Below are positions 12,971-28,376 of a stretch of 35,542 bases of DNA, in pieces. Each line of letters opens with the position of its first letter. The stretch's first letter is position 1. Under the pieces are notes generated by a model. That model was not told where the DNA came from and did no database searches. It saw nothing but the letters and a program-made list of their open reading frames with translations. The stretch is from Acidocella sp. (GTDB lineage: Bacteria > Pseudomonadota > Alphaproteobacteria > Acetobacterales > Acetobacteraceae). Location: positions 1 to 35,542 of the forward strand of contig NZ_JABEVC010000058.1 of assembly GCF_013044125.1 (NCBI RefSeq), written 5' to 3'. Made by a program: the position numbers and the translations under genes.

Positions 12971-13004
12971 GAATCTCTCTCTTTCATATCCCTCATAACG
13001 CGCC

Positions 13005-13010
13005 TATATA
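13005..13010 (+). promoter_or_regulatory. Possible -10 element for ssrA
   Basis: TATATA lies about 35-40 nt before the start of the acceptor piece of the tmRNA. The sequence 17 nt upstream, TTTCAT, is a poor -35 match, so this is a weak prediction from position and composition only. Confidence 0.25.
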
Positions 13011-13039
13011 GGTTCTGCCAGCTTGCTGGCTATGGTGAT

Positions 13040-13345
13040 AAATGGTGCGTGGAATAATCGTTGTGGACCCGGGGGCAGTACCCGGCACCTCCACCAACTA
13101 TTCTGGGCGGCCCGATTCAGACTACGCGCTCGTGCGCTTCGTCATCGGGACGCCTCGGGTTATTTGGGGGTGAAACAGGCTCGACACGCGTGGTAAAGAC
13201 CCACCTTTTGCCCGGCATTGTACCGCCGTTATCGGGCTATAACTTAAATGCGAACGATAACAACGTAGCATTCGCGGTCGCTGCCTAAACAGCAGCTAAG
13301 CGCGGTTCGGGGGGCACCGGGCAACAGAAGCCCCCCACTTTCTTC
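13040..13345 (+). ncRNA. ssrA: Permuted two-piece tmRNA
   Basis: Rescues stalled ribosomes by acting as tRNA and then as mRNA. The gene is circularly permuted. The acceptor piece comes first and ends CACCTCC-A-CCA at 13086-13096, with a T arm CCGGG/GGCAGTA/CCCGG. A spacer of about 69 nt (13097-13165) follows, and then the coding piece, starting GGGGGTGAAAC at 13166. GGGGGTG pairs with CACCTCC over 7 bp (one G-U), rebuilding the acceptor stem, and CACGC at 13185-13189 pairs with GCGTG at 13047-13051 as helix 2. The tag frame starts at GCG 13250 and reads ANDNNVAFAVAA, then TAA at 13286-13288; with the charged alanine the tag is AANDNNVAFAVAA. A pseudoknot stem GGGGGGC/GCCCCCC lies at 13309-13336. 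The outer ends of both pieces are approximate. Confidence 0.93.
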
Positions 13346-13414
13346 GCGGCTTTCCGGAAACCTGGCGCCATGCAAGGCCGCCGTGGATAAAACTTGGGGA
13401 CACAAAACCTGGAC

Positions 13415-23712: not shown

Positions 23713-24717
23713 CTATTCTCCCAATTGCACCGGCCTGCGGGCGATAATCACCGGCACGCCGAATATATGTTGATTCTCGCTAATCCCAAGCAGCACCTTA
23801 GTCCCCGGCGCCATGGAGGCAATGGCCCGCGTTAACGCGGTGGCGCCGCCAATCGTGCGGCCGTTCACCGCAACCACCACCTCCCCGGCATTCAGCCCCG
23901 CCCTGGCGGCCGGTCCGCCGGGCTCCACGCCGGTAATGCGCGCCCCCTCTTGCGCGCCGCCGCCGCGGTCCGCCACCGAGATGCCAAGCCACCCGCGCGC
24001 GATCTCGCCATGCGCGATCAGCGCGGCAACAATTGGGCGCGCGCTGTTGCTGGGAATGGCGAAGCCGAGACCCACCGAACCGCCGGAAGGCGAGACAATG
24101 GCTGAGTTTATGCCGATCACCGCCCCCGCCATATTGAACGCCGGCCCACCCGAATTACCGGGGTTGATCGGAGCATCAAGTTGCAGAAAATGGTCGAACG
24201 GCCCGTCGCCAATATCGCGCCCCTCGGCGGAAATAATCCCCAGGGTGAACGAGTTCCCCAGCGCGAACGGGTTGCCCGCGGCCAGCACCCAGTCGCCCAC
24301 CTGCGCGCTGGCGGAGTTGCCCCAGACGGCAACCGGCAACGGGCGGGGTGACGTAATTTTAATGACCGCGATATCGGTCAGATCATCCGCCCCGGCCAGT
24401 TTCGCCGGAAACTGCTCGCCGTCGTTCAGCGTCACCATGATTCGCGCCGCCCCGGCAATCACATGGTCATTGGTGACAATCATCCCATCCCGGCTGACGA
24501 TGAAGCCAGACCCCGCGGCCTCCGCCACCCCGCCCGCCGGACCATGCTTCTCCGGCGTGCCCGGCGCCTGCATCACCGTAATGCCGACCACCACAGGGGC
24601 GACCGCATGCACCAGCGGCGCCAGGGAAGCGGGCGCCCCCATCACCTGTGCGGCTGCCACGCCCCGGGGGCCGAGCAGAAGCGCTGCGAAAATTAACGGG
24701 CCAAAAAAACGCTGCAT
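23713..24717 (-). CDS. Periplasmic HtrA/DegQ-like serine protease with one PDZ domain
   Basis: Secreted trypsin-fold protease or chaperone for misfolded envelope proteins. The ATG at 24717 begins a clear signal peptide (MQRFFGPLIFAALLLGPRGVAAA). The catalytic triad is visible: His in VTNDHVI, Asp in DLTDIAVI, Ser in PGNSGGPAF. One PDZ domain follows (about 240-330, RGWLGISVAD... GPAARAGLNAGEVVVAVNGRTIGG). With 334 aa it is shorter than DegP (two PDZ domains) and resembles DegS in layout, although a cleavable signal is more likely than an anchor. The ORF track begins at a TTG 14 codons upstream; neither start has a strong ribosome binding site, so the exact start is uncertain. It is the first gene of an operon with a two-component pair. 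Confidence 0.9.
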   Translation of the reverse strand: MQRFFGPLIFAALLLGPRGVAAAQVMGAPASLAPLVHAVAPVVVGITVMQAPGTPEKHGPAGGVAEAAGSGFIVSRDGMIVTNDHVIAGAARIMVTLNDGEQFPAKLAGADDLTDIAVIKITSPRPLPVAVWGNSASAQVGDWVLAAGNPFALGNSFTLGIISAEGRDIGDGPFDHFLQLDAPINPGNSGGPAFNMAGAVIGINSAIVSPSGGSVGLGFAIPSNSARPIVAALIAHGEIARGWLGISVADRGGGAQEGARITGVEPGGPAARAGLNAGEVVVAVNGRTIGGATALTRAIASMAPGTKVLLGISENQHIFGVPVIIARRPVQLGE

Positions 24718-25236
24718 TAGTAAGGGACATGCCACCGCCCCCGCACGGGTGCAAGACAACTCTGCGCGTCCACCCGCGCGCCACCCGTTTCAACGGCGGA
24801 TTGTGTACGATAAGCAATGATAGTGTCCTGCCCCTGAAGTCCGCGGCATCTGGCAGCGGACGGAAGGGACGAGCAGGCCACTGAAAACAAAAAGATAGTG
24901 TCCTGCCCCTGAAGTCCGCGGCATCTGGCAGCGGACGGAAGGGACGAGCAGGCCACTGAAAACAAAAAAATAGTGTCCTGCCCCTGAAGTCCGCGGCATC
25001 TGGCAGCGGACGGAAGGGACGAGCAGGCCACTGAAAACATGGCTAGTGTCCTGCCCCTGAAGTCCGCGGCATCTGGCAGCGGACGGAAGGGACAAGCAGG
25101 CCACTGAAAACAAATTAAGTTTCCCGTGAGTGAAGATATTCCGGTGCTGCGAACTCCAGAATCGGAACGATAGCCGTCCGCCGCCAAAAAGCCTATAGTT
25201 GGTTGCGTATCGTTATCCCGTTCAGGAGTTCAGAAT
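24718..25236. other. Intergenic region with tandem repeats (519 bp)
   Basis: This divergent region lies between the protease operon (minus) and the DUF883-like gene (plus). The array at 24821-25114 fills most of it. The remaining flanks must carry both promoters. No convincing protein-coding gene is seen; the ORF-track frames here are the repeats read as protein. Confidence 0.7.
24821..25114. repeat. Four tandem palindromic units of about 70 nt
   Basis: Units begin at 24821, 24896, 24971 and 25044 (periods 75, 75 and 73). The ~70-nt core, starting TAGTGTCCTGCCCCTGAAG and ending CAGGCCACTGAAAACA, is identical in the first three copies and has one G-to-A change in the fourth; the short A-rich joints vary. 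Each unit folds on itself: AGTGtCCTGC pairs with GCAGGcCACT, CCCT with AGGG and GTCCGC with GCGGAC. The near-identity means recent amplification or active homogenisation. The layout recalls clustered REP/BIME elements, but no known family is recognised. Confidence 0.95.
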
Positions 25237-25581: not shown

Positions 25582-25971
25582 GTGCCGCTCTCCCGGCATG
25601 TGCGTTTTTATGCCAGAGCCTCGGCGCTATGGGGCGGCATGGGCTTGGCCATGTTGCTCCTGGGCTTTGCCGCCGCCGGGTTTTTCATCGCCGCGTTCTA
25701 CATCTGGCTGGCCGCGCATCTCGCGCCCGCGCAGGCGGCCCTCGTCACCGGCGCGGCGCTGCTGGCCTTGGCTCTGGCCCTCGGCCTCATCGGCGGCGCC
25801 GTGTTGCGCGCCGCCCGCGCGCGTGAGCGCGCCCGGCGGGCCGAATTCAGCCTCACCCTCGGCACGGTGCTGCGCCTGGCCGCCTATCTGGTCCGCCGCG
25901 ACCCCAAAAAAGCAATGATTTTCGCGCTCATCGCCGGCGCGCTGGCGGAGTTTTTCACCGGAGAGACCTGA
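25582..25971 (+). CDS. Small holin-like membrane protein (phage holin superfamily III-like)
   Basis: 129 aa with a GTG start. Two adjacent hydrophobic helices (GGMGLAMLLLGFAAAGFFIAAFYIWLA and ALVTGAALLALALALGLIGGAVL) are followed by an amphipathic basic segment and a third short hydrophobic helix near the C-terminus (AMIFALIAGALAEFF). The same layout occurs in proteins placed in the phage holin III/DUF1469 superfamily, which often accompany DUF883 genes and are not necessarily lytic. The last 17 nt overlap the convergent doc gene. Confidence 0.65.
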   Translation: MPLSRHVRFYARASALWGGMGLAMLLLGFAAAGFFIAAFYIWLAAHLAPAQAALVTGAALLALALALGLIGGAVLRAARARERARRAEFSLTLGTVLRLAAYLVRRDPKKAMIFALIAGALAEFFTGET

Positions 25972-26338
25972 GCAGCCACGCGGCAAAACTGTCCTCGCTC
26001 ATGCCCCCGGTCGCCAGCGCAACCATGTTTTCCACCGCCGCCGCCGCCGAAACATGCAGCTCGATGCCGTTTATTTTTAAAAACAACACGCAGCACGCCC
26101 AGGCGGTGCGCTTGTTGCCATCGAGAAACGCATGGTTTTTGGCAATCCCGAACGCATACGCCGCCCCCATCGCCGTCCAGTCCACCGCCGGATCATAACC
26201 AAATTTGTCCACCGGCCGGTTGAGCGCGCTGTTCAGCAACGCCTCATCGCGCAGGCCATGATACCCGCCATATTCGCGGATCGACTGGTCATGCAGGAAC
26301 AAAACCGCATCCGGCTCCAAAAACGCCGGCGCGCTCAC
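25955..26338 (-). CDS. doc: Doc-type (death-on-curing) toxin
   Basis: 127-aa Fic-fold protein. The motif HAFLDGNKR at 69-77 matches the Doc/Fic signature HxFx(D/E)GNKR. Doc enzymes phosphorylate EF-Tu and block translation. The C-terminal Fic helix differs from true AMPylating Fic, which ends in GNGR. The start is a GTG whose last bases overlap the antitoxin stop (GTGA), so translation is coupled. The stop lies 17 nt inside the convergent holin-like gene. The antitoxin is AbrB-like, unlike the classical Phd. Confidence 0.9.
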   Translation of the reverse strand: MSAPAFLEPDAVLFLHDQSIREYGGYHGLRDEALLNSALNRPVDKFGYDPAVDWTAMGAAYAFGIAKNHAFLDGNKRTAWACCVLFLKINGIELHVSAAAAVENMVALATGGMSEDSFAAWLLRSLR

Positions 26339-26562
26339 CGCTTCGCCAACCCGGCCAGGGCATCAGCCTGTTCGCGCAAAACCTCCCGCGCCGCCGCCAG
26401 CTGCTTCTCCAGCGCCAGATTGCGCTTTACCAGCTTGATCCCATCCGCCAGCTCCACCAGGGTCAACTCCTGCCCGACCTCAAACCCCATCCGCACCCGC
26501 GTCTCCGCCGGAATCGCCACGCCGACGGAGTTGCCTTGTTTTCGAACGGTTACAGTGTCCAT
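26335..26562 (-). CDS. AbrB/MazE-type antitoxin of the Doc toxin
   Basis: 75 aa. The N-terminal swapped-hairpin DNA-binding domain reads TVTVRKQGNSVGVAIPAETRVRMGFEVGQELTLVEL and is a good match to the AbrB/MazE/SpoVT fold. The C-terminal ~35 residues (KLVKRNLALEKQLAAAREVLREQAD) probably form the helix that neutralises Doc. The ATG at 26562 has GGAG about 8 nt upstream, better than the ORF-track start 8 codons earlier. Autoregulation is likely: see the inverted repeat at 26578-26596. Confidence 0.88.
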   Translation of the reverse strand: MDTVTVRKQGNSVGVAIPAETRVRMGFEVGQELTLVELADGIKLVKRNLALEKQLAAAREVLREQADALAGLAKR

Positions 26563-26577
26563 GGGGTTGCTCCGGGT

Positions 26578-26596
26578 GTATGACAAAGCGTCATAC
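26578..26596. promoter_or_regulatory. Candidate operator of the AbrB-Doc operon
   Basis: GTATGAC and GTCATAC form a perfect 7-bp inverted repeat with a 5-nt spacer, 16 nt upstream of the antitoxin start. A symmetrical site overlapping the expected promoter is typical of autoregulated toxin-antitoxin modules; binding is not shown. Confidence 0.55.
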
Positions 26597-26653
26597 TACC
26601 CTGTCCACGCCATCAAGTCGAGTTTTTCCGTGACCAGCACCGCCGCTTGCGCT

Positions 26654-26666
26654 ATTAAATTTTAAT
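26654..26666. promoter_or_regulatory. AT-rich palindrome upstream of parD
   Basis: ATTAAATTTTAAT is a perfect palindrome around its central T, 27 nt before the parD ATG. The TTTAATAC sequence at its right end could hold a -10 element. It may be the ParD operator or just promoter DNA. Confidence 0.4.
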
Positions 26667-26693
26667 ACTTTCTCACATCACCGGACCGCGTCC

Positions 26694-26957
26694 ATGAACA
26701 TCTCCATCTCACTCACGCCCGAACTACTCGGCCTCATCAAGAGCAAAGTGGAGTCTGGCCGCTACACCTCAACGAGCGAGGTTGTGCGCGAGGCTCTGCG
26801 CCTGCTGGAACGCGCCGACGCGCGCGAAGCCGATTCTCGTGCCCGGTTGCGGCAATCCTGGGATGATGGTGTGGCCAGTGGTGACGCCGGGCCGCTTGAT
26901 TTCGCCGGGCTAAAAGTTCTGGCATGTGAAAAACTGGCCGCCTCGTCCAAGGAATAG
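26694..26957 (+). CDS. parD: ParD-family ribbon-helix-helix antitoxin
   Basis: 87 aa. The N-terminal ribbon-helix-helix domain is clear: NISISLTPELLGLIKSKVESGRYTSTSEVVREALRLLE matches the ParD/CC2985 family, with the strand, turn and second helix in place. The acidic C-terminus (SWDDGVASGDAGPLDF) is the usual toxin-neutralising region. It is divergent from the AbrB-Doc module. A complete parE would be expected next, but only a 24-codon remnant is present, followed by an AT-rich HEPN gene. Confidence 0.88.
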   Translation: MNISISLTPELLGLIKSKVESGRYTSTSEVVREALRLLERADAREADSRARLRQSWDDGVASGDAGPLDFAGLKVLACEKLAASSKE

Positions 26958-26958
26958 T

Positions 26959-27033
26959 GTGCCCGTTCTCCGCCTCGCCTTTGCGACCGACGCGGCAGCG
27001 GCGGCGGTTGATGTTTATGACTTTGGAAAATAA
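26959..27033 (+). pseudogene. Probable truncated parE toxin remnant
   Basis: A GTG right after the parD stop opens a 24-codon frame, VPVLRLAFATDAAAAAVDVYDFGK, ended by TAA. The start position and the acidic-to-aromatic VDVYDFG pattern resemble the beginning of ParE toxins (DLxDIYDYG type). The rest of ParE, with its catalytic-site basic residues, is absent. The GC content falls sharply at the end of this frame, so an AT-rich insert probably replaced the rest. Too short for the ORF track, and the assignment is by resemblance only. Confidence 0.45.
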
Positions 27034-27038
27034 TTGAA

Positions 27039-28346
27039 ATGGATAGAGATTTTACGGACAAAACCCTAATTGTCGACCAACTTGGCTATTTCTGGTGGGC
27101 AACAGAAAAGCGTGAATCACGCCTTAAAGCACCGGACTCAGCTGTTCCGGGAAGATTGAGAATTACTGACGACGGTGAGATCGACCTACAATGTCTTGGC
27201 CGATTACCCGAGAGAGAAGTAGAAGATCAAGTTTACAAAGACAACATCTTTGGGGTTCTAGCGGACGGCAATTGGGTAGCCCTCCATCAGTTAAAGCGCG
27301 CTCGGGAGGGATTTTGTTCGCATGGCATATCTCAAGAAGGGTTTTCTGCTGAATACTGTCTGATATCGCAAACCGAGGCTTTTTTTTCCGAATCAAACCT
27401 TTTCGATGAAATGGAGATTAACCTTTCATCTCTGACGAGTTGGTTTACCTCTAATGTTGACTGCAAATACGAAAAAAACGGCGATTTTCATCTCCACTAT
27501 AAACGGCCGACGGACATTGAATTTTGTATTGGTGGAATGCGTATGGTGATAAAATCGGACTGTTCCTTCAATCCTAATGAAGATGGTTCTGAAACCAATA
27601 CTTTTAAGGAGATCAAAAGACTCGTAGTTTCGAATATAGAAACCGTATCATTTAAAAAATATTGGGATATTCTAAATGAATTAGAAAGGCTTTTTCGGCT
27701 GCTTTCTGGGAATGAAATTATCCTACCGTTTCCTGCGCTTCGATCAGCGCAGCATCCATGGTGGGTCAAACTTTATTTGAGACGCCACTCTGTCGATGTA
27801 GATAAATTCAATCAGCGCAATACTCCTTTTTTATATCATGAGATAGAGGCCGAGTTCCCGATCATAGCCCAACGATATTTCAAAACATATGAGCAAATCA
27901 AGGCAGCGTTTATTTTTTATTTTTCGGCAAAATACAATAATGACACCTATCTTGAGTCGAAGTTTTTATTGTTCGTTGCGGCATTGGAGGCTTATGCCGA
28001 TCAAATACTTAATATGTCTAAAAATAAAGATCTGCAAGCAAAGATTCAAAGGTCATTAGAAAAAGCAGTTTCTAAAATTAATCGAAAGACAAAAAATAAA
28101 TTTGCAGAGAAATGCACGGATTACCGCAATTTTTTGTCTCACGGAAACAAGAATTTATTTCAAAACGACTATAGTCTGGATATAGCTTGGAAAACTGATG
28201 GGCTTGCTTTGATTGTTCAGGTGCTGCTTCTAAAGGAAATTGGTTTAGACTCCGCCCGCGTGGAAAACTGGCTACTCACAGGCAATGGCCATACTTCACG
28301 CATACACATATTCCGTGAGGCAGGCTTGTCATTTAACCAAGGGTAA
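27039..28346 (+). CDS. ApeA-like HEPN-domain putative anti-phage protein
   Basis: 435 aa. The N-terminal ~270 residues resemble the ApeA N-terminal domain, with a YFWWATEK strand, VPGRLRITDDGEIDLQCLG and later ISQTEAFFSESNLFDEM. The C-terminal ~130 residues are helical and carry the HEPN ribonuclease motif R-x4-H at Arg363-His368 (RNFLSH), in a DYRNFLSHGN context. HEPN proteins of this type are proposed or shown abortive-infection RNases (ApeA in E. coli defence surveys). The gene is strikingly AT-rich with rare-codon use unlike its neighbours, implying horizontal transfer. It starts 5 nt after the parE remnant, probably under parD control. The assignment is by recall of the family; the target is unknown. 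Confidence 0.78.
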   Translation: MDRDFTDKTLIVDQLGYFWWATEKRESRLKAPDSAVPGRLRITDDGEIDLQCLGRLPEREVEDQVYKDNIFGVLADGNWVALHQLKRAREGFCSHGISQEGFSAEYCLISQTEAFFSESNLFDEMEINLSSLTSWFTSNVDCKYEKNGDFHLHYKRPTDIEFCIGGMRMVIKSDCSFNPNEDGSETNTFKEIKRLVVSNIETVSFKKYWDILNELERLFRLLSGNEIILPFPALRSAQHPWWVKLYLRRHSVDVDKFNQRNTPFLYHEIEAEFPIIAQRYFKTYEQIKAAFIFYFSAKYNNDTYLESKFLLFVAALEAYADQILNMSKNKDLQAKIQRSLEKAVSKINRKTKNKFAEKCTDYRNFLSHGNKNLFQNDYSLDIAWKTDGLALIVQVLLLKEIGLDSARVENWLLTGNGHTSRIHIFREAGLSFNQG

Positions 28347-28376
28347 GGGCGGTGCGCTTCGCGTCCTGGGGAAAAC

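Follow-up and report, generated by a model that had tools for sequence, protein, structure and literature searches.

The window, that is, the whole stretch of 35,542 nucleotides of Acidocella sp. DNA that was analysed, carries a HEPN gene of the ApeA type shortly behind a parD gene. With a probability of about 0.75, this gene encodes a stand-alone ApeA-type HEPN abortive-infection effector that was carried as exchangeable cargo beside a toxin-less ParD, and the two genes do not form a conserved ParD-HEPN module. On present evidence the pairing appears to be unique to this locus and, since it was found nowhere else, the adjacency looks like a chance neighbourhood and not like a new hybrid system. 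The original prediction had read the locus as a HEPN gene inserted into parE and placed under the control of ParD. The toxin-less ParD, the co-directional ApeA-type HEPN gene behind it and the defence-type company were retained from that reading, while the insertion into parE and the hybrid module were not. The features are collected in Table 1.

Table 1. Features of the locus, in window positions (aa, amino acids)
Feature	Position	Strand	Support or remark
Fic/Doc toxin gene, 127 aa	25955..26338	-	PF02661 E=1.1e-14; motif HAFLDGNKR intact
MazE/AbrB-type antitoxin gene, paired with Doc	26335..26586	-	PF04014 E=2.1e-6; kept, like doc, in G002 and G009
Variable cargo interval	26599..28375	.	BLAST against sister genomes
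Palindrome TATTAAA-T-TTTAATA, candidate ParD operator	26653..26667	.	26 bp before the parD start
parD antitoxin gene, 87 aa, intact, orphan	26694..26957	+	PF03693, TIGR02606
24-codon ORF, GTG start, ParE identity unsupported	26959..27033	+	Pfam, shuffle controls
ApeA-type HEPN gene, 435 aa	27039..28346	+	Pfam, PADLOC, AlphaFold2 model

The HEPN gene and its predicted protein

An ApeA-like N-terminal domain and a HEPN R-x4-H motif had been proposed for the protein, and the HMM search asked for by the original prediction recovered both domains above their curated cut-offs. ApeA_NTD1 (PF18862) matched residues 16-227 with E=2.7e-16 (60.3 bits, cut-off 25.5), and HEPN_Apea (PF18739) matched residues 322-405 with E=4.6e-9 (37.2 bits, cut-off 24.4). 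The best match in PADLOC was PDC-S58 (E=6.8e-32), over two stretches of which the better one covered residues 18-341, and the Cas13-ApeA model of PADLOC also matched the protein (E=1.3e-16). An alignment of the window protein with 13 relatives was prepared, and all 14 sequences matched both ApeA Pfam models. The predicted catalytic motif R363-x4-H368 was present, and R363, N364 and H368 were invariant across the alignment. The identity of the window protein to the relatives aligned, at most about 26% in this set, was only about 17-28% over all alignments, so that a changed activity is possible, and its HEPN insert region was ~45-50 residues shorter than in most of them. On sequence grounds, the gene is a divergent ApeA/PDC-S58 member.

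An AlphaFold2 model was obtained from a 12-sequence alignment, from which two rows derived from plasmid records were left out, and reached a mean pLDDT of 83.5 and a pTM of 0.81. In this model the N-terminal half was beta-rich and the C-terminal half helical, with R363-H368 on the helix 349-368. The fold search of PDB and BFVD with the model returned nothing at E <= 0.001, and therefore no structural homologue can be named for the protein; the sequence search of the PDB gave chance-level matches only. No close relatives were detected in IMG/VR viral contigs, in phages or, with the single protein as the query, in GTDB genomes, and the search of GTDB with the alignment as the query yielded seven distant relatives.

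The gene begins 5 nt after the 24-codon ORF and is AT-rich, both as originally described. Its GC content was 40% (GC3 0.39), against 59-64% in the neighbouring genes (parD and doc, 61% each; mazE, 64%; ilvN, 59%).

The orphan parD and the 24-codon ORF

The description of ParD as intact was confirmed: the protein is full length, carries the RHH domain and matched PF03693 (E=5.8e-14, 52.7 bits against a cut-off of 21) and TIGR02606 (E=3e-18). This is the sole ParD of the genome. No ParE (PF05016) was found anywhere in the genome (99.6% complete), and for this reason ParD is regarded as an orphan. No ParE-like segment was found downstream of parD or elsewhere in the window either; a complete ParE elsewhere in the operon, listed beforehand as a point that would count against the hybrid reading, is thus missing from both window and genome. 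Within the genus, the DNA relatives of the parD segment were its own copy and short fragments only.

Across the order, 17 of 27 ParD partners were ParE, as counted with a self-made, approximate ParE model and crude ORF calling, and no conclusion here is based on this count. Another orphan ParD before a non-ParE gene was seen on an Azospirillum plasmid (L148:673-1504), where a 58-aa ParD without ParE overlaps the gene of an ATP-binding protein. In a further locus (L007:1498-1929, genome G070), a ParD-like N-terminus is fused in one ORF to an apparent nucleotidyltransferase with the motif GSxARxxxxxxSDxD.

The 24-codon ORF stands where a parE would begin, and this position is the sole pointer to ParE. 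It had been taken for a ParE cut to 24 codons; the ORF does exist, but it had no Pfam ParE match even at E=10. On a model of the ParE N-terminus, built from 14 ParD-linked toxins, it scored 0.7 bits, a value equalled by 707 of 2000 of its own shuffles and reached at 209 of 2180 start codons picked at random from the window. Pfam, the local ParE HMMs and the shuffle controls were all negative, and the ORF was rejected as a ParE remnant. The GC content steps from 0.77 to 0.30 at ~27008, within the ORF, and therefore the parD-like DNA and the HEPN DNA are probably joined there. The truncation of a parE by the arrival of the HEPN gene is unproven.

The cargo site between mazE-doc and ilvN

BLAST homology between the window and the sister genomes ended at 26598, was patchy to ~26638 and restarted at 28376, in ilvN. 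One sister genome, G022, represents the empty site, in which 42 bp replace window positions 25955-28375 between flanks that are 93-95% identical. Since its homology runs to 25954 and then from 28376, doc, mazE, parD and the HEPN gene are all missing from G022. Relative to this genome doc belongs to an inserted block, and doc is also present in G002 and G009 (95-96% identical). In G002, a homology of 96% continued without interruption across doc and mazE as far as 26598 and was followed by an Mrr_cat restriction gene (PF04471, 2.8e-20), the contig ending inside this cargo. In G009, whose upstream flank lies on another contig, mazE-doc (95.6%) is found by ilvN with a DndB-family gene (PF14072, 6.3e-25) in between. 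No integrase was recognised adjoining the cargo site.

Given these sister genomes with an empty site or a different cargo, positions ~26599-28375 constitute a slot for cargo that is bordered by mazE-doc and ilvN, and the genome comparison indicates that this segment is a single swapped cargo and that the region next to ilvN is a small defence hotspot. The variable segment starts upstream of parD; therefore, parD and the HEPN gene share the cargo interval, and the HEPN gene did not land behind a resident parDE common to the sister species. As a ParE remnant lacks statistical support, the insertion of the HEPN gene into parE is regarded as unsupported.

Several additional observations were made at this site and elsewhere in the window. 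The Mrr-type gene in the slot of G002 lies in contig C61 (L132:3304-3826), the final bases of which resemble, by eye, the start of a transposase, and the DndB-family gene in the slot of G009 lies in contig C25 (L087:2590-3807). Just upstream of mazE (window 26579-26595) there is a palindrome, TATGAC-N5-GTCATA, with outer arms kept in G002 and G009, which is probably the MazE-Doc operator. Tandem copies of ~73-75 bp were found in window 24886-25039, at the end of the gene 23813-24817; G022 has a single copy, so that the copy number varies between species. A permuted two-piece tmRNA gene with the tag ANDNNVAFAVAA is located in window 13004-13379.

The relation between ParD and the HEPN gene

The HEPN gene starts 81 nt after the parD stop on the same strand, and no terminator-like site was found on the + strand between the two. 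The 15-bp palindrome of the parD leader, TATTAAATTTTAATA, was the sole exact or one-mismatch match in the window and was found in 0 of 100 shuffles, a test made post hoc after the palindrome had been spotted by eye; it is a candidate ParD operator. The scan for sigma-70 promoters gave no hit on the + strand at parD-HEPN, a result of little weight, since the promoters of Alphaproteobacteria differ. Taken at the level of the sequence, a promoter under ParD control may drive both genes in one transcript.

This arrangement, together with a full-length ParD that has its RHH domain in a genome without ParE, is what would be expected if ParD bound its own promoter or operator and so determined how much HEPN RNase is made from the gene behind it, a toxin-antitoxin regulator thereby controlling an abortive-infection effector. 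Nevertheless, we consider such a hybrid module fairly unlikely, because neither ParD nor ParE was found beside the HEPN gene at any of the 36 other ApeA-type loci (pooled from phylum, family, genus/class, plasmid and GTDB matches, a somewhat redundant set with a few loci cut by contig ends). This was the survey for further pairs that the original prediction had proposed. The ParD profile, run over the ORFs of the ApeA-type loci, matched only the window's own copies. Furthermore, the site holds unrelated cargo in the sister species, ApeA relatives need no RHH partner, and the absence of a + strand promoter in the sigma-70 scan adds a point of little weight. In its explicit form, ParD on the palindrome would repress a bicistronic parD-HEPN transcript, and the loss of labile ParD under stress or infection would lead to more ApeA-type RNase. 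This course of events is unlikely; if true, it would be the first case of an ApeA effector coupled to an RHH antitoxin, put together locally.

ApeA_NTD1 was present in 12 of 399 genomes across the phylum and in 10 of 398 genomes of the family, this genome being counted in both. In two loci of the same genus (L088:1023-5359 and L089:3795-8997), the ApeA-type HEPN gene comes immediately after a large gene for a type IIG restriction-methylase, which it overlaps by a few bases in L088, and a back-up pair of R-M and HEPN is possible there. ApeA-NTD1 with HEPN is a described architecture, embedded in restriction-modification (R-M) operons in epsilonproteobacteria (Anantharaman et al., 2013, PMC3710099), and the placement in L088 and L089 agrees with these neighbours. 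A HEPN gene found in this genome alone and lacking defence company had also been named as a point against the hybrid reading. Relatives were found, and an association with defence genes was observed for ApeA/PDC-S58, with Mrr or DndB-like cargo at the same site in the sister species and the two genus relatives behind type IIG R-M genes.

The orphan ParD and the HEPN gene might also be decaying debris on its way to being lost from a site prone to insertions. The disappearance of ParE is in line with this, and comparable orphan or truncated ParDE loci are a parE cut by an IS in Oscillatoria and the short Azospirillum ParD by the ATP-binding protein gene; however, neither ORF is shortened, and the catalytic and structural columns of HEPN are intact, which makes decay quite unlikely. 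It is very improbable that ParD is the protein antitoxin of the HEPN protein, as it would be if an exchange of the toxin had given rise to a new type II pair. Only the antitoxin-toxin gene order and the short spacing point to this, whereas ParD neutralises ParE through binding and the HEPN_Apea fold is unrelated, ApeA relatives have no nearby ParD gene, and a large N-terminal domain is already part of ApeA itself.

For the preferred reading, a stand-alone effector carried as cargo, the literature on ApeA proteins makes ligand sensing and RNA cleavage without ParD the likeliest mechanism; the summary of Gao et al. (2020) in PMC7699616 describes these proteins as HEPN defence effectors. A preprint cited in PMC13405049 has deoxydinucleotides in its title as the activator. 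The beta-rich N-terminal domain would sense an infection by-product as its ligand, and this would unleash the dimeric HEPN RNase (R363/H368), which would cut RNA and halt the infected cell. Control would be post-translational, inside the HEPN protein, and would have no need of ParD. The parD gene would be an orphan antitoxin gene that either entered this cargo interval or remained there and, at most, would lend the HEPN gene a promoter that ParD may repress.

With this locus, ApeA gains a divergent member, and a small defence hotspot with clean boundaries is described, which in close species is either empty or filled with Mrr, DndB-like or ApeA cargo. A further lesson is that the adjacency of antitoxin and RNase genes can come from cargo exchange and not from module formation.

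Compared with ApeA (Gao et al., 2020; PMC3710099), the window protein is alike in its two-domain order, in both Pfam models over the cut-off, in R-x4-H and in being encoded by a single gene, but it is at most about 28% identical to the relatives found, its HEPN insert is shorter, and its gene lies behind an orphan parD and not behind R-M genes. Its best PADLOC match, PDC-S58, is itself only a candidate family. With the ParDE type II toxin-antitoxin systems the window shares the ParD antitoxin and the candidate operator; in contrast to them, it has no ParE in the window or the genome, and the 24-codon ORF is unrecognisable as ParE. Unlike other bacterial defence-gene hotspots, the window site is very small (~1.8 kb of cargo) and lies by mazE-doc and ilvN, with no integrase recognised adjoining it, but it is alike in that, among closely related species, the one site is found empty and with three distinct defence-type cargos.
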